Below are positions 14,314 through 33,671 of a DNA stretch of 48,584 nt, one piece after another. Position 1 is the first letter of the stretch, and the number at the start of each line of letters is the position of its first letter. This stretch comes from a bacterium (GTDB taxonomy: Bacteria > Sysuimicrobiota > Sysuimicrobiia > Sysuimicrobiales > Segetimicrobiaceae), in the NCBI GenBank assembly GCA_035703895.1, contig DASSXJ010000058.1:1-48584 (forward strand), given 5' to 3'. The notes beneath the pieces are model-generated. The model was not told the origin of the DNA. It was given only the letters and a program-made list of their open reading frames with translations, and ran no database searches. A program made the position numbers and the translations under genes.

Positions 14314-15548
14314 TGCAAGTCGACGTAGCGATCATCGGCGCCGGACCGGCGGGGCTCGCAGCGGCCGCCGCGGCAGCCGAGCACGGCCTCAACACGATTA
14401 TCCTCGATGAAGGCCTCGAGCCCGGCGGACGCCTCTTGAGTCAGGTTCACGAGATCTCGGAAGCGGGCCGTGCAGGCCATGTGTGGAACGGACCTCGGGT
14501 GGCCGCGGATCTCGCCGCCGCCGCGAAGAACGCCGGCGCTCAGTTCTGTCTGCGATCGACGGTATGGGGACTGTTCCCGGGATGGCGGATCATGCTCCAC
14601 GGGCCCGGCCCGGCAGAAATCGAGGCTGCTCGTCTCATCGTGGCGACCGGAGCCATGCAACTGCCCGTCGCGCTTCCGGGATGGACCCTGCCGGGAGTCA
14701 TGACCGTTGGCGCGGCCCAATCGATGATTAATCACCACCGGGTGCTGCCCGGCAGGCGAGCGGTACTGATCGGCATCGACCTGCTCGCGTTGACCGTTGC
14801 CCAGCAACTGACCTCCGTGGGTGTTGAGGTCGCAGGCGTCGTGATGCCGGCTCCTGGGCCGCTTACCGGGCCGCCGGCCGATCTCGGTCGGGTTGTGGAC
14901 GAGTTGTTGCGATTGGGGGCCTGGGCGCCGGCCGCCGGACTGCGGCTGGCGGGGTGTGTGCTGCAGGGTTTCGCGGCGTCGCATCTTGTCGCCCGTCTCT
15001 TTCCTCCTGACGGCGTTAGAGTTTGGGATATTGCCGTCATGCCCCGTCGGGCCGCACTGGAGATCCGCGGTAATGGATCGGTGAAGTCAGTCATTCTCGC
15101 CGACCTGACGCCGGCAGGTGAACCCGACCTGGAGACCGCCCGCGAGGTTGAGGTCGACCTCGTCTGTACCTCAGGAGGTCTCGCCCCGTTGACCGAGCTG
15201 CCGGAGATCGCCGGCTGTCGGATCTCCTACGTGGCTGAGTGGGACGCATCTGTGCCCCTGCACGGTCCCGCGCTTGAGACGACCGCCGAGGGCGTCTTCG
15301 TTGCTGGGAGCGTCACGGGGGTCGAGGGTGCGCCGATTGCAGCGCTTCAGGGCCGTCTTGCCGGCTATGCGGTCGCTAGTGCCGCGGGACGGATGCCGCG
15401 CGGCGAGTACGATGCGGAACTCCAGCGGGTACAAAAGGAGCTCAACGATATTCGCCGCCACGCGATCCCCTTGTGGCGCAACATTGCCGCCGGCCGCGCC
15501 GCGATCGCCGGCTCGTGGCAAGAGGCGCGCCGCGGCGCGCAGGCGTGA
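14313..15548 (+). CDS. FAD/NAD(P)-type subunit of an opine-oxidase-like dehydrogenase (HcnB-like)
   Basis: A 411-residue pyridine-nucleotide-disulphide-type flavoprotein. The first dinucleotide motif VAIIGAGPAGLAAAAAA is at 5-21, GGRLLSQ is near 37, IVATGAMQLPVALPGWTLPG lies near 108-127, and the second nucleotide fold includes RRAVLIGIDLLAL. A GVFVAGSVTGVEGAP block near the C-terminus is the FAD-binding GD-like motif. Unlike HcnB or opine oxidase A it has no C-terminal [2Fe-2S] domain; the separate 94-residue protein at 12529 probably replaces it. The ATG overlaps the ferredoxin stop, so the subunits should be made together. Confidence 0.85.
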   Translation: MQVDVAIIGAGPAGLAAAAAAAEHGLNTIILDEGLEPGGRLLSQVHEISEAGRAGHVWNGPRVAADLAAAAKNAGAQFCLRSTVWGLFPGWRIMLHGPGPAEIEAARLIVATGAMQLPVALPGWTLPGVMTVGAAQSMINHHRVLPGRRAVLIGIDLLALTVAQQLTSVGVEVAGVVMPAPGPLTGPPADLGRVVDELLRLGAWAPAAGLRLAGCVLQGFAASHLVARLFPPDGVRVWDIAVMPRRAALEIRGNGSVKSVILADLTPAGEPDLETAREVEVDLVCTSGGLAPLTELPEIAGCRISYVAEWDASVPLHGPALETTAEGVFVAGSVTGVEGAPIAALQGRLAGYAVASAAGRMPRGEYDAELQRVQKELNDIRRHAIPLWRNIAAGRAAIAGSWQEARRGAQA

Positions 15549-15556
15549 GGAAGACC

Positions 15557-15915
15557 GTGAAGTCGCTCGTGACCGAACGATTTACCGAGGCCGTGGCTCA
15601 GGAAGTCTTGGAGCACGTTTACCGGCCCAGGCTTCAGACGGAATTCAGCAGCACCCTCGGCTACATGTCGGTCGCCAACAAGGCGCACGTGATCATGCTG
15701 GCCGTGTCGCAGGCACGTCGAACATCATGCCGCAGAAGAAACACCCGGTGGTGCTGGAGCATCTCAGGGGCAAGCCGCCGCATCTCATCGCCGGGTTCGT
15801 TTCGGCCGGGTCGGCCGTCAAGAACACCAACTTCACCAACACGATTGATGGGAACCGCGAAGCGGTCGGCGCCCTGTACCCATTCTTCCATGTGCGGCTG
15901 AGCGAAGCGGGATGA
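15557..15915 (+). pseudogene. Argininosuccinate-lyase-family pseudogene, internally deleted and joined to a copA-like scrap
   Basis: The first part (from GTG 15557, VKSLVTERFTEAVAQ... to VANKAHVIMLA) matches the start of the intact lyase at 22483-23985. At about 15700 it jumps, in another frame, to the signature GTSNIMPQKKHP and on to NTNFTNTIDGNREA, skipping roughly 235 residues. After about 15861 the DNA instead resembles copA: 15862-15903 matches 3311-3352 at 36 of 42 bases and encodes the same GALYPFFHV. It follows the dehydrogenase operon by eight bases, so the parent operon once ended in a lyase. It cannot make a working enzyme. Confidence 0.8.
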
Positions 15916-16085: not shown

Positions 16086-18701
16086 TCAGCCGCCAATCCG
16101 CAGAAAAGTCGCGTATAGACTTGGCCGACCGCCGTCATCGAGAAGCCAGAGCATATAATTGCCTGGAGCAGCAATGTTCCCATTTGGCGGGGATTGCACC
16201 CGAAGATAGCCAACGGGTGAGCCAAGTGTAGCAGCCGTCGTAGTCTCGAATGCCAGCGCGACATAGCGCTGATCATAGTTAAACCCGTGAGTTACTGATC
16301 CGACTCTGATGACAGCCACTCTAGAAATGGAATGAAACCTCGACTCCACTTGACCTGCTGACCCTAACGACAATTGGAATGAAACGGTGAAAGTTTCACC
16401 ATAGCCGATTTTGGACGGAGCTAAGCTAATCACAAGCCGGTCGCATTCGGCAATATAGTCCGGATTGAACACTTCAATCCTGAACTCGGAAGAAGGTGCG
16501 CCGAAGGTATTGTTTACCTCTGACCCAGCCGTCCAAACACGCCCGTCAGCCATAAGAAGCGCAACGGAATGGTAACCGCGTGGGACTCTGGCTGGCGCGT
16601 CATTAAGCGCCCGCCAAGTAGTAGTGCTCGGATCGAAGATTTCCGGAACCTGCTGGCCATTTGTTGCATCGGTGCCTGGACCGCTCAGGGCCGGATCCTT
16701 CATCCCCCCGTTGACAAACACTTCACCGGTTGGAAGCAATGTTGCGTTGCAATGGTTTCTTTTCCCCTTCACCTGACGCGGATTCGTCACTTGCCAGGAT
16801 GCAGAGGACTCGGCACCCGCCTGCAACGTGGTAATCAGCGCCTGCTCCCCGCCACATAGCAGGATCCTAACACGATATTTGTCATCGGGAAGCAACGGTA
16901 GCAGGACGGAACTCGTATATTGAGCCAGTGTATTGCTATTGAGGTAGTCCTCTTCGCTATTCTGGGGCCCCGGGAAGCTGGCGGTAACGGCTTGCGACGA
17001 CGCATCATAAATCAAGCTCCGCATCGCAAAGGCAAGCGTGTTTTCCTGTGACGCAACGTCCGAATAGAGAGGTTGAACAATGAGAATTTTCCCAGACGGC
17101 AAGACGTGCAGCCTTGGATAGAATACAGCCATGTTTGGATTAAGACCCTCGCCTAGCGCGTCCAACAACGTCCAGGCTCCGGTCACGAGAGAGAACACCT
17201 CGGGGGTATTGTTGTTGTGCCGCTCATCATCCCAAGGAAGGACCGAGAATGGTGGAGGAAAGGAAGACCCGGGCGGGGCACTGTATTGATCAATTGGAAC
17301 GCCTTTGAATTTTGCGGTTGCCGAGTAGATTCTCGGATGTCCGCACATCGCGATTACGGAGCCATCACCGAGCGTCAGGAGGCTCGGATACCATCGTCCA
17401 CCACCCTGTTTGGTTTTGCCGGGAGTGTAGGATTGTGGAGCGTAATTCATCGGCGCGATGGAGACCCAACTCGGCGTAGCGGCCGGGTCAAAGATCCAGG
17501 CTTCCCGCAACCCGCCCCAATGCCCCGCATGTGGATTGCTGGACGTTGGAATGGACATCATACTCGTGCCGCCAGCTACCAAAAGGCGACCATCCGCGAG
17601 CAGAGAATGACCGCTGCAAAAGAGGTCAAAGAATTCATTCTGAGCCAAACCTCCTGGGCCTCTTGGCGTGCCAGGCCTGGTTACTGCTTGTGACTGATAA
17701 TTAACTAACACGGTGTGATTGACCATGCCCGCATCGTGGTTATTGGCGTCCCATCGGTTGCCCGAGAAATATAGTATCGAGCCCAGTATTCCTTCTCCGA
17801 CGGGTAGCAGAGCAGCGTGAACTGCAAGGGTCCACTTGCTTTTATCCGGTTCGCCGAAACTGGCTTCGGGCTCGAAAGGTGAGGACCAATAAGCCATTCT
17901 TGCCGGGTCAATCGTGATGCTCGGCTCGTTCTCGATCGGGTTGTTTTGCAGCGAGCCGCCGAACGCGGTTCGCATGATCCACAACGTCTGGTTGCTGACC
18001 ACTGGAGCGTTGGCCGTGACGGTGAAGTGCAGGCTTGCATTGACGCTGGCTCCGCGTGGAACGTGAACGGTCGTCGGCTGCAGCGACACCCCTTGCGGGC
18101 CGGGCCCGGTGTCCAGGGTGTAGGTGACGTCGGTGTCTGGTCCGGCCAGCGACTGCACGACGATCGGTAGATCGCCCGAGCCGCCTTGCGGGATCGTCAA
18201 CAAAGTCGCTCCCAGATGTGTCGCGATCTCACCGAGCGAGAGGGAGAGCGGAATCTGCACTGGGTTCGGAGACCAGGCATCGCCTGCAATCAAGAGCGTT
18301 GCGCCGAAGGCGTCGCCCTTTTTAGGAGCCGTGTACCGAATGCTGACGAGCACGAACTGGCCTTGCCTGACGGGGAGCGAACTCGTGCCATCCGACTGCG
18401 CGACCAGCTCGAGGACGCGCTCTCCCCGTACTGGAAAACGGGGAGAGATTGGCGCCTGAGGTGGGCCGGGAGGGAGTGGTATCACGACCCAATGATATAC
18501 GGCGACGCTCGCGATCTTGAAAACTCCGGCAGTGTTGTCGGAGAGCTTGGCCGTCACGTTCGCGGGGGGCGCATTATCAAGAAACACGCCACCTGACAAG
18601 TCGACATTCTCGCCGGGCGGCCCGGGCGGCGGGCCCGTCGACCCCGGCGAGACCGACCCAAAGTTCACCGCTTGCGGAGTGAACTTGACGGGAGCGCCCA
18701 C
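16086..18701 (-). CDS. Galactose-oxidase-like copper radical oxidase with N-terminal Ig-like domains
   Basis: An 871-residue protein. Residues 1-220 resemble ASPM/Hydin-type Ig-like domains (KFTPQAVNFGSVSPGS); the rest is a kelch propeller with a C-terminal DUF1929-type domain, as in galactose and glyoxal oxidases. All active-site residues are present: C362 (FCSGHS), Y438 (RWYPS), Y710-H711 (RGYHS) and H805 (VTHGFN). They correspond to the Cys-Tyr cofactor, axial Tyr and two His of galactose oxidase, so oxidation of an alcohol or aldehyde with H2O2 release is expected. GTG start with a strong AAAGGAGG site. No signal peptide is visible, odd for this family. The DNA looks more AT-rich than its neighbours. 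It is the last gene of the riboswitch-led operon. Confidence 0.85.
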   Translation of the reverse strand: MGAPVKFTPQAVNFGSVSPGSTGPPPGPPGENVDLSGGVFLDNAPPANVTAKLSDNTAGVFKIASVAVYHWVVIPLPPGPPQAPISPRFPVRGERVLELVAQSDGTSSLPVRQGQFVLVSIRYTAPKKGDAFGATLLIAGDAWSPNPVQIPLSLSLGEIATHLGATLLTIPQGGSGDLPIVVQSLAGPDTDVTYTLDTGPGPQGVSLQPTTVHVPRGASVNASLHFTVTANAPVVSNQTLWIMRTAFGGSLQNNPIENEPSITIDPARMAYWSSPFEPEASFGEPDKSKWTLAVHAALLPVGEGILGSILYFSGNRWDANNHDAGMVNHTVLVNYQSQAVTRPGTPRGPGGLAQNEFFDLFCSGHSLLADGRLLVAGGTSMMSIPTSSNPHAGHWGGLREAWIFDPAATPSWVSIAPMNYAPQSYTPGKTKQGGGRWYPSLLTLGDGSVIAMCGHPRIYSATAKFKGVPIDQYSAPPGSSFPPPFSVLPWDDERHNNNTPEVFSLVTGAWTLLDALGEGLNPNMAVFYPRLHVLPSGKILIVQPLYSDVASQENTLAFAMRSLIYDASSQAVTASFPGPQNSEEDYLNSNTLAQYTSSVLLPLLPDDKYRVRILLCGGEQALITTLQAGAESSASWQVTNPRQVKGKRNHCNATLLPTGEVFVNGGMKDPALSGPGTDATNGQQVPEIFDPSTTTWRALNDAPARVPRGYHSVALLMADGRVWTAGSEVNNTFGAPSSEFRIEVFNPDYIAECDRLVISLAPSKIGYGETFTVSFQLSLGSAGQVESRFHSISRVAVIRVGSVTHGFNYDQRYVALAFETTTAATLGSPVGYLRVQSPPNGNIAAPGNYMLWLLDDGGRPSLYATFLRIGG

Positions 18702-18784: not shown

Positions 18785-19552
18785 CTAACGCATCAGGATG
18801 CGCTCCATATGGGAGCGCACGTCGGCTGGAAGCTCCTCCAGCCTGATGCCAGACAGCCGTCCGATCTCGATCGCCTTGACCCCAGCCTGCGTATGAAGGG
18901 GCTCCGGCGTCAGGGGTCGGTCCGGGGCTTCTCCCACTTGATGGAGCACGATCGTCAGACGCGGGAGCGTGGCCGCCTGCAGTTCCCGCTTAGGAACGCG
19001 AACGAAGAAGTCGAAGCTGGGCTCGGCGATGAACCGATGTTTGCCCTCGGGGCCCGGCACGTCGCGATTGGCGAAGGCGCGACGCACGCCGAGATCCGGA
19101 ATAGAGCCGAGGCCGATTCGTCGAGTGTCGATGGAGGCTTCATACACGTAGCCGCGGGCTACGGCGCTTGGGAGGTCGATGGGCCCTGCCACTTCGTGCA
19201 CGCCAACCACGGAGAGCCTGCCGTTTTCGACGTGCACCTCAAGTCGAACATACGCTTCTGGAGGCGCGGTCTCAACCGGCGTACTTCGCCGCTCTTGCGG
19301 TTTCCCCGGTAACGGCTGTGGGACTGATGGCTGCTGCGGAACGGCCGCCATGCGGGGTTGACCAACGATGGGTGCCGTGGTGTCCTTCCCCATTACGGGG
19401 CCGTCAGTGATTCTCGGGACAGGTTCGACATCACCGATCCGGGCCATCGAGGGCAGACCGCGGACGGCCACGACCGGGTCAGCGCCCGCGCGCTGTTCAC
19501 GCGGCAGATCGGGACGGACATCGACCAGCCTCTTACTTTCTTGGTTTGCCAT
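18785..19552 (-). CDS. Uncharacterised protein between peptidase and copper oxidase
   Basis: A 255-residue protein I do not recognise. Residues about 60-100 are rich in Pro and Gln and look disordered. The C-terminal part (about 100-255: YVRLEVHVENGRLSVVGVHEVAG..., FDFFVRVPKRELQAATLPRLTIVLHQ) alternates hydrophobic and polar residues like a beta domain. No membrane helix or signal peptide is seen. It starts 15 bases after the M64 peptidase gene with ribosome site GGGAGCG and ends 83 bases before the copper oxidase, so it lies inside the same operon. A helper of the two large enzymes is possible but unsupported. Confidence 0.65.
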   Translation of the reverse strand: MANQESKRLVDVRPDLPREQRAGADPVVAVRGLPSMARIGDVEPVPRITDGPVMGKDTTAPIVGQPRMAAVPQQPSVPQPLPGKPQERRSTPVETAPPEAYVRLEVHVENGRLSVVGVHEVAGPIDLPSAVARGYVYEASIDTRRIGLGSIPDLGVRRAFANRDVPGPEGKHRFIAEPSFDFFVRVPKRELQAATLPRLTIVLHQVGEAPDRPLTPEPLHTQAGVKAIEIGRLSGIRLEELPADVRSHMERILMR

Positions 19553-19567
19553 GGCGCGCTCCCGACT

Positions 19568-21607
19568 TCAAAAATTATGTCCGTACTTGTAGTTGTGGAT
19601 CCACCTGTAGTATATCCTGTCGAGCGCGTACGGTGCTGCACTTCTGAGCATCCCGAACCAATCTTGATTGTGAACGAAGAGGTCCGACCGCCGCCCACTG
19701 CCCTGATAGTCGCACGGCTCGAAATGGTCGACCGTGCCGAGATGCCAGCCGCCGATCCAATCGGCCGCCCAGTCGCAGTTCAACCCGACGCCTGTCGAGA
19801 GCATACGGCCCAGGTAGACGGGCCCCCAGTCGTTTGCGTTGAACACGGCCAAGTCTGCCCTGCCGTCCGCATTCAGATCCGCGACGTAGTGGCGGTCGTG
19901 GGTGCGCATCTGCCAGCCCGGCGCGTTGCCGTCGTACCGCTGCACCATGGTCAGCGCGGAGCCCGTAGATTCGAGCATCCCGAGGTAGGCGATCGCCCAC
20001 GCGTCCCCATTGAAGACGAAGAGATCCGTCTTCCCATCACCGTTGAAGTCGCCGATGAAGTGCTGATCCGACGGGCGCATCTGCCAGCCGGGCATGGTGC
20101 CGTCATAGCGCGTCGCCATGGATAGGCTTGCCCCGTTGGAACTGAGCATCCCAAGATAGGGGAAAGCCCACGCATTCCCGTTGAAGACGAAGAGATCCGC
20201 CATCCCATCACCGTTGAAGTCGCCGATGAAGTGCTGATCCGACGGGCGCATCTGCCAGTCGGGCAAGTTGGCGTCGTAGCGCTGGACCAACGATAGCCCC
20301 GTACCGTTCGACCGCAGGAGCCCCAGATAGGGGATCGCCCAGTTGCTGCCGTTGAAGACGAAGACATCGGCCCTCCGGTCGCCGTCGAAATCGCCGACGA
20401 AGAACTGATCGCCGCTCGTAAACTGCCATCCCGGCATTGCCCCGTCGTAGCGGGCGATCAATCGGAGGCCACCGCTTCCGTCATCCGCGAGGAGCCCGAG
20501 GTACGGCATGATCCAATCCGTGCCGTTGAACACCAGGACCTCGTCCTTCCCGTCTGCGTTGAAGTCGGCTACCCAGTACCGGTCGCCGGGCTGGAATTGC
20601 CAGGAGCCGGGTACGAGATTCACCACGCTGAACTGAACATCCAGTTGGCTGCTATTGGACCGGTACAGCATGATGCCGTTGCCGTTGTGCACAAGGAGGC
20701 CCGACCTGCGATCGCCGTCAAAATCCCCCGGATAGCAGTCCCAGAACGTGCGCCCCGTTTTCGAGTCGTTGAGTTGTTTCATGGACGTGTAGCACACGGG
20801 GCAGTACGGCGGCAAATTGGAGTTCATGCGACAGTTGATGACGGGCCGGTACACGCCCCGGGTGACGGTCCCGCCGCCTTCGAACAGGCCGACGCTCTGG
20901 TTGTCGTCCCAATCAGCAGGGCGGGCACCCTGCGTGTAGCCGGCGCACTTGCCGACCCCGGTCGGAATGGGTGTCGCCGGATTAACGAATCTGCCCCATT
21001 TCAGCGTGGCCCGGTTGGTGTTGATCGTAAGGTCGACGCATCCGGGCTCGCCGCCAGTGTACGTCGTGTCCGTTTCGCAATACTCGTCGCAAAAACCGCC
21101 CAGCCCGTGGCCGAATTCGTGGGCGATGGTGTCCCACGTGATCCCGAGCGGCAAGACGGCGAACCCGCCACCCCCACAGCCGCCGAACCCGGGGTTGTTC
21201 AGCAGGATCAGGACCAGGTTGTGGTCGGGGACCCAGGTGTTGAGCGCGTTTTGCACGAGCGTTCCAGTGTTCGGGCCGCCCTCGAGCCAGCAGTGTGACC
21301 AGGAACCGCTATAGTAGTACCCGAGCGCCGTGTTCCGTGTCGTCGTGCTCAACAAGGTCCCGTTGTTGTACGTTTTGGTGCCGACGCCAGAATCGACGGA
21401 GATGAGGTTGACGCGGTAGATATTGAAAGCTTGAATGTCCTCAAAGTAGTAGTCGTGCTTGAACAGGCCATTGATCAGCAACTCATTGACTTTCGCGTTG
21501 TAGACATCTTGATCCGCGCCGGCCGCGAAGCCATCCCCCAGGACGGCGATATTGACTTTAGTGCCGGGCGCCCCCGAGGAGAGGATTTGCGTCATGCTAT
21601 CGGGCAT
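19568..21607 (-). CDS. M64-type metallopeptidase with FG-GAP/VCBS-like repeats
   Basis: A 679-residue protein. Residues about 1-310 form an IgA-peptidase-M64-like domain (ILSSGAPGTKVNIAVLGDGF at the start) with zinc motif HEFGH (163-167) followed by FCDEY. The C-terminal half has about six units of roughly 57 residues with Ca-binding-like DFDGDRRAD, DFNADGKDE and DFNGDGMAD loops, as in integrin-type FG-GAP propellers. Two units share a 55-base identical DNA stretch, so the repeat array grew recently. The start at 21607 has a very good site (GGGAGGATCGCC); a longer frame has none. No signal peptide is visible. First gene of the operon below the c-di-GMP riboswitch. Confidence 0.82.
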   Translation of the reverse strand: MPDSMTQILSSGAPGTKVNIAVLGDGFAAGADQDVYNAKVNELLINGLFKHDYYFEDIQAFNIYRVNLISVDSGVGTKTYNNGTLLSTTTRNTALGYYYSGSWSHCWLEGGPNTGTLVQNALNTWVPDHNLVLILLNNPGFGGCGGGGFAVLPLGITWDTIAHEFGHGLGGFCDEYCETDTTYTGGEPGCVDLTINTNRATLKWGRFVNPATPIPTGVGKCAGYTQGARPADWDDNQSVGLFEGGGTVTRGVYRPVINCRMNSNLPPYCPVCYTSMKQLNDSKTGRTFWDCYPGDFDGDRRSGLLVHNGNGIMLYRSNSSQLDVQFSVVNLVPGSWQFQPGDRYWVADFNADGKDEVLVFNGTDWIMPYLGLLADDGSGGLRLIARYDGAMPGWQFTSGDQFFVGDFDGDRRADVFVFNGSNWAIPYLGLLRSNGTGLSLVQRYDANLPDWQMRPSDQHFIGDFNGDGMADLFVFNGNAWAFPYLGMLSSNGASLSMATRYDGTMPGWQMRPSDQHFIGDFNGDGKTDLFVFNGDAWAIAYLGMLESTGSALTMVQRYDGNAPGWQMRTHDRHYVADLNADGRADLAVFNANDWGPVYLGRMLSTGVGLNCDWAADWIGGWHLGTVDHFEPCDYQGSGRRSDLFVHNQDWFGMLRSAAPYALDRIYYRWIHNYKYGHNF
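20033..20258. repeat. 55-base direct repeat within the propeller-coding region
   Basis: 20033-20087 and 20204-20258 are identical, 171 bases (57 codons) apart, the length of one FG-GAP-like unit. This indicates recent duplication or gene conversion between repeats of the M64-type gene. Confidence 0.75.
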
Positions 21608-21870
21608 GGCGATCCTCCCAAGTGAATTCCGCTCGTGAGATTCCGCGATCGGTGTCAGTATCCACGAAACCACCTCCCCTCCGGCACAGCATCAGCGCCT
21701 TCATGCCGGTTCGAGGCACGCGGCGAAATACGTGCCGGGACGTTGCCGAGACGTTCAACTGACCCAGGGACCGGGCGCTACGGCGTTTTTCTGGTGGGTC
21801 CTCAAACTGGCGCAGCGTTCGCTGTGAGTGCAAGCGCAAACGCGAGTGTTGAGAGGGTCAATGGACGAGG

Positions 21871-21908
21871 GATCAAAACGAAACGCGGCGTCCCGCAAGG
21901 GACCCCGC
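21871..21908 (-). terminator. Intrinsic terminator, likely expression platform of the riboswitch
   Basis: On the minus strand a hairpin with nine of ten pairs (21899-21908 with 21885-21894, loop TTGC) is followed by a T-rich tract (GTTTCGTTTTGATC). It lies 26 bases after the c-di-GMP aptamer and 264 bases before the peptidase start. That is the position expected for a ligand-controlled terminator. I could not find a clear antiterminator by eye. Confidence 0.6.
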
Positions 21909-21933
21909 GTCAGATCACGCCAATCATCCATCA

Positions 21934-22014
21934 CCTCCGGCAGCCCGGCCGACCTCTGATCGAGGTCCCGTGGCTTTGCGTCCCCGAATTGCTTCGAGTT
22001 TGCCCGTGCGGAGG
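21934..22014 (-). ncRNA. Cyclic-di-GMP-I (GEMM) riboswitch
   Basis: The minus strand carries the GEMM-I core. GGGCAAAC (21998-22005) is followed by a stem capped with a GCAA tetraloop, then the hallmark GGGGACGCAAAGCC (21972-21985), a second stem with ACCTC/GAGGT, and a closing GGCCGGGCTGCC. The outer P1 stem pairs CCTCCG (22009-22014) with CGGAGG (21934-21939). A promoter lies upstream and an intrinsic terminator downstream. It should control the M64 peptidase / unknown / copper oxidase operon in response to c-di-GMP. Whether ligand turns it on or off is not evident. Confidence 0.85.
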
Positions 22015-22034
22015 AACGTGCTCTCTCCGATGCT

Positions 22035-22064
22035 AGTATCGCGGTCGGGGCGCACGAACGTCAA
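22035..22064 (-). promoter_or_regulatory. Promoter of the riboswitch operon
   Basis: On the minus strand, TTGACG (22059-22064) and GATACT (22035-22040) are 18 bases apart. A start near 22028 lies just before the c-di-GMP aptamer and gives a leader of about 420 bases to the peptidase ATG. Confidence 0.6.
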
Positions 22065-22482: not shown

Positions 22483-23985
22483 CTAGGCACCGAGGAGCGC
22501 TTTGACTGCTTCATCAAGCCCGCGCCTCGCGCGTGCGAGTTTGGCCTTCCGGGCGGCATGCGCCCTCTCCTCGGAGGCGAGCCGTCGTTCGCCCTCGCGG
22601 GCCATTCGACGGACCTGCCGCGGCCCGGGTCCCCCGATGGTATTCCGCGCGCGAACCGAGCGCACAGGATCTAGGGCCTGCTTCACCACGGACTCCGCAA
22701 GCCCCGCGGGGCGGCCGAGCACCTTCCGGGCAACCTCGTCGACGAGTCTGGAGCCGATACGGTCGGAACTGAGGCCGCGCCTGATCGCTTCCCGAACGAC
22801 CGCCCCCACCACATGATGGGCCTGCCTGAACGGCATGCCGCCGTGACGCACGCAGGCATCCGCGAGGTCCGTGGCGGTGCAGAAGTTCTGCCGGGCTCGT
22901 TCAAGCATCAGCGATGCGCGTGGGAGTACTGTGGAAAGGCTGAGGCGCAGCAGGACCGTACAGGTCTCGGCGACGTTGGTGGCGCGCCAGAGGGCGTCGG
23001 CGCATTCGTGGTTGGCATCGATGACGTTCGTGAAGTGCGTGTTTTTGACCGATGACGCCGCCCAGGCAAATCCGGCGACGAGGGCTGAGGCCTTGCCCTT
23101 AAGGTGCTCCAGGACGACCGGGTTCTTTTTTTGGGGCATGATGCTCGAGGTGCCCGCGACGCGGTCGGGAAAGTCAATGAGGCCGAGTTCGGGAGTGAAC
23201 CACACATGGAAATCCTGCGCGAGGCGACTGCACGTCAGGCCGAACACAGCCCAGGCCGCCAGCAGCTGGAGGGCGAAATCTCGGGAGGCCACCGCGTCTT
23301 GTGTGTGCTCCACCAACCCATCGAATCCCAAGAGGCGGCATGTATAGGCTCGATCGATCGGAAAGGTCGTCCCAGTCATGGCCGCGGCGCCCAGGGGGCA
23401 CCGGTTCGTCACAGGGTAGCCGCCGGTGACGCGATCGGTGTCGCGTTCCAGTGCCGCCGCCACGCCAAGGAGGTAATGGCCGAAGGTGGTCGGCTGCGCG
23501 GGCTGGAGATGTGTGTAACCCGACATTACGACGTCCGCACATCGTTTCGCCTGCGCCAAGGCGGCGCGTCTCGCCTCGAATAACGAAGCCAGAAACTTGA
23601 GGACGAGGTCACGCGTGCGCAACCGAGCGAGCGTGGCGTTGAGATCGTTGCGGCTTCGGCCGGTGTGCATCTGTCCGCCGATCTCCGGGCCCGCGAGCGC
23701 GATGACGGCGCGCTCATAGTTGAAGTAGATATCCTCCAGTGAACGATCGAGCGCAACGGACTCGGGCCCTCGGCGCTCCAATGCGAGGATGGCGCGCAGG
23801 AGCTTGCGGGCTGCCGGCTTAGTGATGACCGCCTGTCTCGCAAGCATCAGGACGTGGGCTTTGTTGACCGCCGTCATATATGGGAACATGGGCGCGAAGT
23901 CGGCGTTGATCTCCGGGGCATAGAGGCAGTCGACGATCTCTTGGGCGGGACCTTCTGCCAGACGTTCTGTGACGCGTGACTTCAC
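22483..23985 (-). CDS. Argininosuccinate/EDDS-lyase-like C-N lyase
   Basis: A 500-residue member of the fumarase/aspartase superfamily, which cleaves C-N bonds by beta-elimination, typically releasing fumarate. Signature GTSSIMPQKKNP lies near 285. TGRSRNDLNATLARL, YTHLQPAQPTTFGHYLL and the AHHVVGAVVREA C-terminal motif are also present. Length and context (importers, amine oxidases, GntR regulator) resemble ethylenediaminedisuccinate lyases more than biosynthetic ArgH, but ArgH cannot be excluded by eye. GTG start at 23985 with GGAGG seven bases upstream; longer frames run into the GntR gene. It lies 28 bases after the regulator and is probably co-transcribed. Confidence 0.82.
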   Translation of the reverse strand: MKSRVTERLAEGPAQEIVDCLYAPEINADFAPMFPYMTAVNKAHVLMLARQAVITKPAARKLLRAILALERRGPESVALDRSLEDIYFNYERAVIALAGPEIGGQMHTGRSRNDLNATLARLRTRDLVLKFLASLFEARRAALAQAKRCADVVMSGYTHLQPAQPTTFGHYLLGVAAALERDTDRVTGGYPVTNRCPLGAAAMTGTTFPIDRAYTCRLLGFDGLVEHTQDAVASRDFALQLLAAWAVFGLTCSRLAQDFHVWFTPELGLIDFPDRVAGTSSIMPQKKNPVVLEHLKGKASALVAGFAWAASSVKNTHFTNVIDANHECADALWRATNVAETCTVLLRLSLSTVLPRASLMLERARQNFCTATDLADACVRHGGMPFRQAHHVVGAVVREAIRRGLSSDRIGSRLVDEVARKVLGRPAGLAESVVKQALDPVRSVRARNTIGGPGPRQVRRMAREGERRLASEERAHAARKAKLARARRGLDEAVKALLGA

Positions 23986-24013
23986 ACGAACACCTCCGGT
24001 CGTTACCTCGTCC

Positions 24014-24703
24014 CTACCCCTGCTGTTCCTTGGCGGGGGCGGTCTGCGCGCCGAGCAACCTCGTAAGGCCATTGTGCCAATTCGTGGCCACTGCGCCGAC
24101 GGCGGCGTCGATGTCGCCCTTCTGCAGCGCGCGAATGATGGCCAGGTGCTCTTCCACGGAGCGGTCGGCGAGGGCGCACCGGTCAAAGTAGGCGATCTCA
24201 ATGCGCCGCAACTTGACCCTCAGCTGATCGAGGATCGCCGTGAGCTCAGGATTCCCCGCGGGACGTACGAGGGCGAAATGAAAATCGCGATCGGCTTCCG
24301 TGGCCTTGGCCGCGTTCCGAGTCTTCAGCGTCCGGGCCAACTGCTGGTTGGCGTCGGTCAGCTTCGTCAGGTCGATCTCGGATGCCCGCGGGCCGGCTGA
24401 GCGTAGCGCAAACGCCTCGAGGGTGCTCACGATCGGGTAGATACGCATTGCATCGTCGAGGTTGAGCGGGGAGACGCGGGTCCACCTATTCGGGGCCGTC
24501 TGCACGAGGCCGTCTTCCTCGAGACGTTGAAAGGCTTCCCGGACAGGCATTCGGCTCACGCCAAACCGGGCCGCGAGGTCCACGTCCCGTACTTTCTCAT
24601 CCGGCTTGAGCGTGCCATCGACGATCCAGGTCCGGAGGGTTGTATAGAGCTGCTCCTTTACGAATTTCCGTTCGATACGGCCGACGGTCTTCGGTACAGG
24701 CAT
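24014..24703 (-). CDS. GntR-family regulator with FCD effector domain
   Basis: A 229-residue regulator. The N-terminal winged helix has LYTTLRTWIVDGTLKPDEKVRDVDLAARFGVSRMPVREAFQRLEEDGLV (about 19-66). The C-terminal all-helical FCD domain (about 85-215) has a metal-site pattern in DRDFHFAL and HLAIIRALQKGD. FCD regulators usually sense organic acids or amino acids and repress catabolic genes. It is divergent from the aminotransferase/importer operon and upstream of the lyase. The shared intergenic region holds a 13-base palindrome over both -10 boxes, so it probably represses both directions and itself. Confidence 0.88.
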   Translation of the reverse strand: MPVPKTVGRIERKFVKEQLYTTLRTWIVDGTLKPDEKVRDVDLAARFGVSRMPVREAFQRLEEDGLVQTAPNRWTRVSPLNLDDAMRIYPIVSTLEAFALRSAGPRASEIDLTKLTDANQQLARTLKTRNAAKATEADRDFHFALVRPAGNPELTAILDQLRVKLRRIEIAYFDRCALADRSVEEHLAIIRALQKGDIDAAVGAVATNWHNGLTRLLGAQTAPAKEQQG

Positions 24704-30340: not shown

Positions 30341-30600
30341 CAAGTGAACCTCGCCCCCAAGCCGGCGACGGTGGAAGGGCTCATGGCGCTCCCGGTTCCG
30401 GACGAGTTCGGCCGCGACGCCGAGCGGCTCGAGCCGGAGTTCCAGGTGTACACCGTCGCGGCGACGCTCGTGGAGTTCAAGGAGGAGGCCAACAACGACA
30501 TCCATCTGGTGATGCCTGTTTCCGCCGCGTCGCAGGCACAGAAAGCCGCCGACTTTATCCAAGGCAAAACCGCCGCGCTTCAGTGTTGTTTCTGGGTCAG
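30340..30600 (+). pseudogene. Fragment of an uncharacterised protein gene
   Basis: The frame VNLAPKPATVEGLMALPVPDE, then FQVYTVAATLVEFKEEANNDIHLVM, looks like the opening of a small-protein family from soil bacteria (KEEADxDIHLVL motif). The family-like part stops after about 60 residues, where the sequence drifts before the oxidase 3' end. It begins at the junction with the preceding fragment and has no start of its own. Confidence 0.45.
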
Positions 30601-33600
30601 TGGAGGCGAATCCATCGGGCTACCGACGGAACGCGGCCGCCATCGACGAGGAAGAGTAGGTACCAGCCCGGAGGGGCGTACGTGCCGTCAGGCGGGGCCT
30701 TCGCGTCGATCGACGTCGCGCTAACCGCGGAGATAGCGCAGCCGACGAAGCGCTGTGACTGGTTGAAGCCGTGAGTGACGGCGCCTGGCCGCAGCAATAC
30801 AACCTCGGCGATAGACGCTGCGTTCGGAGTGTCGACATTGAACGTAGCGCCATACCCTATGGTGGCCGGGGCCCCGACGATCGATGGCCGCGGTTTGAAG
30901 AAGTAGCCGGGGAAGTAGCGCTCAAGGGGTCTCTCGACCGTCGCCCCCTCCGGTTCGCCACCCCCCATGAGCACGCTGCCGTCGGGTAGCAGGATCGCGG
31001 AGGAGTGGTAGCCGCGCGCGTACTTCATGGTGGGGCCGAGCGTCCATCCAGCGGCCAGGTTCTCCGGATCGAGAATCTCCGATGGGCCCACGGTCCCGAA
31101 GCTCGTGCCGGGGACGCCGCCCGCGACGAACACTCGCCCGTCGGGCAGGATCACCGAGTTGACCTGCTCGGGCCGCGGCACGTTGAGGTCCTTCGGCACC
31201 ACCGTCCAGGCGGGCGTCGCGACCGAGAGGTCGATCACCTCGGCGGTACCTTGTGCGTCGGGTGTGTTGCCGCCCACCATCAGGACGCGCGGGGCGTACG
31301 CCGGCGGGCGCAGCGGCAGCAGCACCGACGTCCCGCTCTGGGCGAAGATACTGCGGTTGCCCTTCTGGCTGTTCCAGCGCTTGGCCGGATCGTCGATAGG
31401 CGCGGCCCAATTGTAGCGGCGCGAGACGCTCGGTCCAGCTCCGGGCGGGGTGCCCGGCACCACGTGGTCGGCATTGCCGGCGGAGAAGAGGTCGCCGCCT
31501 GGCAACAGATAGGTCCAGGGGTAGTAGAGGTAATCGAAGGACGCTGGGATGTCGATTGGCGGCTTCTGCCATTTTTGCGTCACCGGGTCGTACACCTCGA
31601 TGCGGTATCCATGCCCCGGGCTGAGCGGCGTGCCAAAGAGTGTGAGGATCTTCCCGTCGCCAAGCGTGAGGCTGGTCGAGTAGAAACGGCCATCTTCCGT
31701 CGGGTCGGTGATCTTCCATTCGTTCGTCGCGCCGTGGAAGAGGAACGACTGGCGGTGCGCGACCGTGCCGCTGGGGTCGGACTCGCCACCGTGCGCGAGC
31801 AAGGTGCCTTCGTCAGTGTCGAGATAGGCGTGTCCGGCGGAGTGGAGGTTCGAGAACAGCGTGTCGCGCGGCGTTTGGGAGTCGGCGGGCTGCTTGGCCG
31901 GATCGCTGTAAACGCCGGTGGCGCTGTCCCAGAGCTGCGTCTCCTGGTACCAATAGCCCCAGAAAAGCACCTTGTCGGTCTTCGGCACCAGCGTGGAGTG
32001 CATCAGCGTGGAGTGCAGCTTGGGCGGTGTCCCATCAGGAACCTCCGTCCACTTACCGTTGTCCAGGGTGTGACAACGCTCCAGGTCGATCGGCGCACAG
32101 TCGTTGCCGCCTGGATCGACTGGAAGCCCGGTCGCGTTGCGCAGGATGTCGGCCTGGGCGTCGGTGAGCCACACCGTCTGGCGGGAGCGCACTAGGCCGG
32201 CTAGTCCTTGCATCATGTGCATCTCAACATGGCAGTGGACGAGGAAGTCGGCGCGCAGATGATAGGCCTTGGCGTGCTTCGGCCGGGACTCAGGTGGCTG
32301 CGTCTTCTCGATCTCGGGCGGCAACAGAAGAACGGGCGGCGCGGTGGTCTCTGCGACGAACGACTCGGCGGGGCTCAGGCTGCGCACGTCGATCGTCTCT
32401 CCGCCGAACTGCCAGCGCTGCGCGTGCGGATGGAAGTTGTGCCAGATGGTGCCAAGGTCGAGGTCGAACACGTACCAGCGGATCTTCTGGCCTGTCACCG
32501 CCTCGATGGTGGGTGTATTGCCGACGAAGGAACGACCATTCAGGCAGAAGCTCGGGATGCCGGCGCCATCTTCAGTGACGCTGTGGGTTTCCATGCTGGC
32601 GTGGACCCATTGGACGGTGCCGCCTGGGCGCACCGTCGCGGTGTTGGTGTTGGTGGCGGGGTTGACGAACTTCATGGGGGGTCCGACGAGGTTAAAGCTG
32701 GCCGTGTCGGCGCCGCCGACGGCGACAGTAACCGTGCCTGTCATCACTGCGTGGAAGTTGCAGTGGAAGTTAAATGTGGCGGGCGCGCCGAACGTCACAA
32801 CGAAGGGCGGGTCGCCTGGGTTGAACGGGTTCTTGTTGAATGCCGGCTGCCCGCTAAGGCCGGCCATGAGGTGGAAGAACAGCGGCACATGTAGCATCGG
32901 GTGGTGCTCCATGGGGGCGTGGCGCACATGTGGGAACTCCGCCCATTCCTTGAGGTGCTCGGCGAGCGCGGTGATCTGCTGTGCAGGCGGCAGCTTCCCC
33001 CGCTTTTCGTGGAGCTCGAGGAATTCTTCGAGCTCCGGAAACAGCGCCATTTCAGGCGGCTTATGGTGCTTGCGCGGGAGAACGACGATCCCTCCGAACA
33101 GCCCGCGGTTTATGAAGTCGCCGATAGTCTTGTAGTGGTCATGGAAAGGCCATGCGCCGACCATGTCGTCGGTTATGTCATACGTGTAGGTCCAGGTCTG
33201 GCCGGGACAGATTTCGTCGGAGCGGCGCCCGTCGCTGCTTTGAACCCCGAGCGGCCACGCGCCGTCGCCATCGATTCCGTACCGGAGGCCATGGAGATGG
33301 AAGCTGTGCGGCTCGGCGGCGCCGTTTAGCACGTGAATGTGTAAGCGTTCCCCCGGGTGCGCGTAGATCACCGTTCCCGGCACGCGCGCGTAATAAACTG
33401 GTTCGTTGATGTCGGCGAGCACGAGCTTGTCGGGTTTCGGGATCGTGTAGGCTGAATCGAGATACTCGCGGTAGACGAGGGCGGTTAAGCCGCGCGCCAG
33501 TATCTCCGACGGCGGGATGTTGCCGTCCTCATGGCCCATCCCGCGCATGCAGTCGCGCCGATAGACTTGCATTGGTTTGGGCTGAGGGTTGACCGGGTTG

Positions 33601-33638
33601 TAATTGGCGATCGACTCGATCTTCAAATAGACGTCCAT
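30597..33638 (-). CDS. Multicopper oxidase fused to a galactose-oxidase-like kelch/DUF1929 domain
   Basis: A 1013-residue chimera. Residues about 1-490 are a laccase-type multicopper oxidase with all four copper motifs: HSFHLH (111-116), HDH (166-168), HNFHPH (400-405) and HCHVEMH (468-474) with C469 as type 1 ligand and probable axial L479. Residues about 520-1013 form a kelch propeller plus DUF1929-type domain like that at 16086. Y653, Y877-H878 and H956 match the radical-copper site, but the thioether cysteine is replaced by S600. The second half may therefore be a poor or inactive oxidase. ATG 33638 has a GGGGGGATCGCC site. No signal peptide is visible. It is downstream of a small secreted protein gene. 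Confidence 0.85.
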   Translation of the reverse strand: MDVYLKIESIANYNPVNPQPKPMQVYRRDCMRGMGHEDGNIPPSEILARGLTALVYREYLDSAYTIPKPDKLVLADINEPVYYARVPGTVIYAHPGERLHIHVLNGAAEPHSFHLHGLRYGIDGDGAWPLGVQSSDGRRSDEICPGQTWTYTYDITDDMVGAWPFHDHYKTIGDFINRGLFGGIVVLPRKHHKPPEMALFPELEEFLELHEKRGKLPPAQQITALAEHLKEWAEFPHVRHAPMEHHPMLHVPLFFHLMAGLSGQPAFNKNPFNPGDPPFVVTFGAPATFNFHCNFHAVMTGTVTVAVGGADTASFNLVGPPMKFVNPATNTNTATVRPGGTVQWVHASMETHSVTEDGAGIPSFCLNGRSFVGNTPTIEAVTGQKIRWYVFDLDLGTIWHNFHPHAQRWQFGGETIDVRSLSPAESFVAETTAPPVLLLPPEIEKTQPPESRPKHAKAYHLRADFLVHCHVEMHMMQGLAGLVRSRQTVWLTDAQADILRNATGLPVDPGGNDCAPIDLERCHTLDNGKWTEVPDGTPPKLHSTLMHSTLVPKTDKVLFWGYWYQETQLWDSATGVYSDPAKQPADSQTPRDTLFSNLHSAGHAYLDTDEGTLLAHGGESDPSGTVAHRQSFLFHGATNEWKITDPTEDGRFYSTSLTLGDGKILTLFGTPLSPGHGYRIEVYDPVTQKWQKPPIDIPASFDYLYYPWTYLLPGGDLFSAGNADHVVPGTPPGAGPSVSRRYNWAAPIDDPAKRWNSQKGNRSIFAQSGTSVLLPLRPPAYAPRVLMVGGNTPDAQGTAEVIDLSVATPAWTVVPKDLNVPRPEQVNSVILPDGRVFVAGGVPGTSFGTVGPSEILDPENLAAGWTLGPTMKYARGYHSSAILLPDGSVLMGGGEPEGATVERPLERYFPGYFFKPRPSIVGAPATIGYGATFNVDTPNAASIAEVVLLRPGAVTHGFNQSQRFVGCAISAVSATSIDAKAPPDGTYAPPGWYLLFLVDGGRVPSVARWIRLH

Positions 33639-33671
33639 GGCGATCCCCCCCGAGCTAGGCAATGCTCGGCT

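Follow-up and report, generated by a model that had tools for sequence, protein, structure and literature searches.

Among c-di-GMP-I riboswitches (GEMM-I, RF01051), the pocket residues reported to contact c-di-GMP in the Vc2 RNA are G20, A47 and C92 (PMC4744006). Geobacter GEMM-I riboswitches that sense cGAMP have the same fold and carry A20, the consensus of the c-di-GMP-I-GGC variant (RF03167) reads ACGCGAAgCC and so has G47, and the printed consensus lines of the UAU variant model have U at positions 20 and 92. Judging from these model consensus lines, G47 (an A47G change) appears to be the change that defines the GGC variant. On the protein side, the peptidase M64 family is represented by BF3526 (4df9/9qdi) and BACOVA_00663 (3p1v) from Bacteroides, and in Streptomyces the radical copper oxidase GlxA functions alongside CslA to make and deposit glucan (PMC11022532).

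Here we describe a c-di-GMP-I riboswitch located in a bacterial contig, DASSXJ010000058.1, whose 48,584 nucleotides constitute the window analysed. It resembles other members of RF01051 in architecture, core, G20/A47/C92 triad and terminator-type expression platform, and differs from them in its target, an operon encoding an M64 peptidase and a copper radical oxidase, for which a search of the open-access literature found no paper describing an association with GEMM-I RNAs. We consider it likely, with a probability of roughly 0.75, that a canonical c-di-GMP-I aptamer and its terminator gate the peptidase, a partner protein and the oxidase, and that a cassette belonging to the lineage thereby drives an operon containing an acquired gene pair. 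The features of the locus are collected in Table 1.

Table 1. Positions of the riboswitch cassette and of the operon genes within the window
Feature	Positions	Strand	Basis or remark
Sigma-70-like promoter, TTGACG-18-GATACT	22035..22064	-	9/12 match; 1 found against 0.1 expected in shuffles
Cassette of aptamer and terminator, with homologues among the leaders of pilus-like operons of congeners	21875..22020	-	Alignment
c-di-GMP-I (GEMM-I) aptamer with G20, A47 and C92	21935..22013	-	Covariance-model match and fold; triad read against Vc2 numbering
Intrinsic terminator, hairpin and U-rich tail	21875..21911	-	Fold; stem about 21911-21881, -24.2 kcal/mol
M64-family metallopeptidase, 679 aa, C-terminal FG-GAP repeats, HEFGH motif, no signal peptide	19568..21607	-
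Partner protein, 255 aa, no assigned family	18785..19552	-	Follows the M64 gene in 3/3 homologous loci
Galactose-oxidase-like copper radical oxidase, 871 aa, no signal peptide	16086..18701	-	G+C 0.573 (lower)

Identity of the aptamer and its ligand pocket

The first-pass annotation of this DNA had described a complete GEMM-I aptamer on the minus strand and proposed a covariance-model comparison with RF01051. That comparison returned 63.2 bits at 21935-22013 (-) against a gathering cut-off of 35 bits, and the P1 helix (CCUCCG/CGGAGG, 22014-21934), the GCAA loop that closes P2 and the GGGGACGCAAAGCC core are all present as that annotation describes them; folded by itself, the leader likewise gives P1, P2 and P3 in its minimum-energy structure. 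Within the pocket, G20 occurs in GGGCAAAC, A47 in ACGCAAAG and C92 in CUGCCG. Because these are the residues reported to contact the ligand in Vc2, we infer that the aptamer is a canonical c-di-GMP sensor. The presence of G20 distinguishes it from the cGAMP-sensing Geobacter riboswitches.

When the members of the clan are compared by cmscan, RF03167 emerges as the best match at the same positions (60.4 bits, E 7.1e-12, gathering cut-off 59 bits), as would be expected if the RNA belonged to the c-di-GMP-I-GGC class and bound a ligand other than c-di-GMP. We regard this as very unlikely. The pocket carries A47 (in ACGCAAAGCC) where the GGC consensus has G47, its G20 and C92 agree with ordinary c-di-GMP sensors, and the bit score with RF01051 exceeds that with RF03167. 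Moreover, two further copies with A47 in this genome are also assigned to RF03167, indicating that the label tracks overall sequence and not the pocket. A GGC-type ligand was thus rejected on the basis of A47.

The genome encodes 12 GGDEF domains, eight of which have a readable motif, and all eight have the Asp of guanine specificity in place and keep the GGDEF or GSDEF motif intact; therefore, c-di-GMP is probably made in this organism. No Hypr-type cGAMP synthase was found among these eight domains.

Promoter, terminator and direction of regulation

The good promoter and the intrinsic terminator reported by the first-pass annotation on either side of the aptamer were both recovered (Table 1), the terminator being a strong one, and the promoter is the only promoter-like site between 21550 and 22500. 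The terminator begins approximately 22 nt past P1, a placement that is consistent with its serving as the expression platform. Transcription would start near 22028 (-), after which the canonical aptamer would fold, and the decision would be made at the terminator (21911-21875, minus strand), where the polymerase would either stop or read through into the peptidase, partner and oxidase genes. The intergenic gaps in the operon are 15 and 83 nt and no terminator-like sites were found between the three genes, which would be controlled as a single transcript. The proposal that the riboswitch controls the operon is partly supported, in that the RNA is a GEMM-I riboswitch, carries the canonical triad and is placed to control the three genes.

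The minimum-energy fold accommodates the aptamer and the terminator simultaneously. Because the terminator can form while the aptamer holds its ligand, an OFF switch, in which c-di-GMP lowers expression, is weakly favoured. Two candidate pairings were rejected. There is a 9-bp pairing between P3 and the 5′ arm of the terminator, which might have formed a simple antiterminator, but equally good pairings arise in 104 of 500 dinucleotide shuffles of this G+C-rich leader, and one congeneric leader (L053) carries a mismatch within it. The second pairing, GGGCUCCG with CGGGGUCC, was spotted by eye in congeneric leaders and is not present in the leader at 21875-22020.

Products of the downstream genes

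The genes that follow had been annotated as an M64-type peptidase with FG-GAP repeats, an unknown protein and a galactose-oxidase-like enzyme with its copper-radical residues, and this description agrees with the analysis of their products. The first protein belongs to Peptidase M64 (Pfam E 7e-27; 94.8 bits against a cut-off of 26), and its HEFGH motif is kept in its homologues. Its catalytic domain matches BF3526 and BACOVA_00663 (E 1.6e-21 and 5.6e-19), with HEFGH in common, and it differs from the known family in its additional FG-GAP repeats, in having no signal peptide and in the separate 255-aa protein encoded next to it. The ATG at 21607 was confirmed as the translation start: homologues start at the same MPD(S/T), and a clear Shine-Dalgarno sequence lies just upstream in two of the three. 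In the partner protein, the N-terminal third (residues 1 to approximately 90) is predicted to be disordered and the remainder to form a mostly beta domain. A fold search with this protein returned nothing at E <= 0.001, and a weak likeness to part of the M64 peptidase structures was seen at E 0.15.

The third protein matches the galactose-oxidase-like E-set (E 3e-19), and Cys362, Tyr438, Tyr710, His711 and His805 occupy the positions of an AA5-like copper-radical site, with Tyr438 assigned by motif and not from a scored alignment. It shares with galactose oxidase and GlxA-type enzymes the Cys, the two Tyr and the two His of this site, and has a weak match to the GlxA model; it is distinguished from GlxA by its score (125 bits against a GlxA cut-off of 800), by its lack of a signal peptide and by a long, unrelated N-terminal part. 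No signal peptide is recognisable in any of the three operon proteins, while the N-termini of control proteins from this regulon do look like signal peptides, and no export route for the three is visible. For the peptidase, this absence is not a start-site error, since its homologues start at the same residue. Given that GlxA works with CslA in Streptomyces glucan synthesis, a role for the operon at the cell surface or in the extracellular matrix of a biofilm is plausible by analogy.

A second copper enzyme is encoded elsewhere in the window (30597-33662, minus strand). This 1021-aa protein is a fusion of multicopper-oxidase-like and galactose-oxidase-like parts, and its galactose-oxidase-like part has another residue where the cofactor Cys should be (LHSAGHA versus LFCSGHS), such that the enzyme may lack the Tyr-Cys cofactor.

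Origins of the cassette and of the genes behind it

Matches to c-di-GMP-I were found in all 42 sampled relatives from the same order, at 1 to 13 copies per sampled genome; this riboswitch is an ordinary, nearly universal element of the order. In two relatives the aptamers occur in tandem, with two lying approximately 110 nt apart in one (L035) and three within 1.4 kb in the other (L098). The genome under study has nine aptamers above the RF01051 cut-off, and the genes that follow the other eight include those for a polysaccharide export protein (AMIN and SLBB domains), a GspH-like pilin, proteins of the CAP-domain, DUF7453 and esterase-like types, and a 1597-aa protein that matches no Pfam family. 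Three of the other aptamers carry A20, as in the Geobacter cGAMP-sensing riboswitches (L003, C250; L008, C187; L009, C30), and the C30 aptamer has G47 as well. Directly 3′ of the C30 aptamer are genes for two large leaderless proteins of 1597 and 1185 aa without Pfam matches (L075:213-8573, minus strand). The larger of these has a homologue in just one further genome among the 43 (31% identity) and is a second accessory case.

The cassette ahead of the peptidase operon aligns with leaders from congeneric genomes at 77% over 152 nt (L092), 76% over 133 nt (L096) and, across the aptamer, 86% (L082), and this alignment stops at the terminator. The genes behind the leaders encode a protein with a hydrophobic PilX-like N-terminus and DUF4900 in L082 and L092, and proteins with pilin-like N-termini in L096. 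Other congeneric leaders score somewhat lower, the pilus leaders being closest by a modest margin. The cassette belongs to a leader family that already serves pilus-like and polysaccharide-export genes in the lineage.

For the peptidase, no homologue was detected in the 42 relatives. Its close homologues belong to distant phyla, with 82% identity to a protein of Paraburkholderia ribeironis and 73% and 57% to those of two Chloroflexi MAGs; the remaining matches are remote and fall in unrelated phyla. Since the partner gene lies directly 3′ of the peptidase gene in all three of these loci, the arrangement marks the two, which look recently acquired, as a horizontally mobile pair. A galactose-oxidase-like gene sits beside them at just one of the three loci and on the opposite strand, so that the case for counting the oxidase gene with the acquired module is weak. 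No plasmid-borne close relatives of the peptidase were found. In tetranucleotide make-up, the 16-22.1 kb region stands apart from the remainder of the contig (0.45 versus 0.69-0.75 with the organism's own genome), a comparison that is noisy over so short a stretch. Flanking the operon are decayed argininosuccinate-lyase-like fragments (15473-15901, plus strand; 61% identity over residues 338-406 and 42% over 47-124) on one side and an intact copy (22483-24201, minus strand) on the other; the fragments are possibly the trace of a rearrangement around the operon.

Arrival of the riboswitch together with the operon was rejected, as searches of the three homologous loci, and of the genomes that carry them, found no GEMM-I riboswitch. 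Because the riboswitch is lineage-wide, the peptidase is new to the lineage and the cassette match ends at the terminator, the most likely history is one in which the acquired operon came under a switch cassette already resident in the lineage, and foreign genes would in this way have been wired into an existing control circuit of surface lifestyle. Neither the mobility of the first two genes nor the occurrence of the cassette throughout the lineage, also before pilus-like and export genes, is part of the first-pass annotation.

The likeness of the cassette to leaders of pilus-like operons could also mean that the riboswitch was left behind by an operon of that type which once stood here, and that the genes inserted behind it use an unrecognised start of their own, free of switch control. 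The long untranslated stretch of approximately 267 nt between the terminator and the M64 start codon would fit such a history, but several hundred bases precede the first gene in the congeneric leaders as well. The switch has kept an intact pocket, promoter and terminator, and a single promoter-like site is present in the region searched, making this account unlikely.

Finally, because the genome is a 337-contig draft and the genes flanking the operon have homologues in congeners at only 30-39% identity, one might suspect a binning or assembly error, with riboswitch and operon not of one organism. This seems extremely improbable, given that the leader is specific to the lineage and that aptamer and peptidase lie 0.33 kb apart on one contig; the FtsH encoded on this contig shares 78-91% identity with that of family genomes, which assigns the contig to the lineage, and contamination was judged unlikely.

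With this locus, the possible targets of c-di-GMP riboswitches come to include an M64 peptidase and a copper radical oxidase, and a native riboswitch cassette can be read ahead of horizontally acquired genes. More tentatively, and with the odds somewhat against it, the cassette might be a portable c-di-GMP input that has repeatedly been placed before newly acquired genes for leaderless, secreted-type proteins, the instances being the peptidase, partner and oxidase genes and the 1597-aa protein behind the C30 aptamer. Were this so, foreign surface enzymes would join the sessile-lifestyle regulon on arrival. The near-universal occurrence of c-di-GMP-I riboswitches in this order is, in addition, useful for mapping c-di-GMP regulons in uncultured bacteria.
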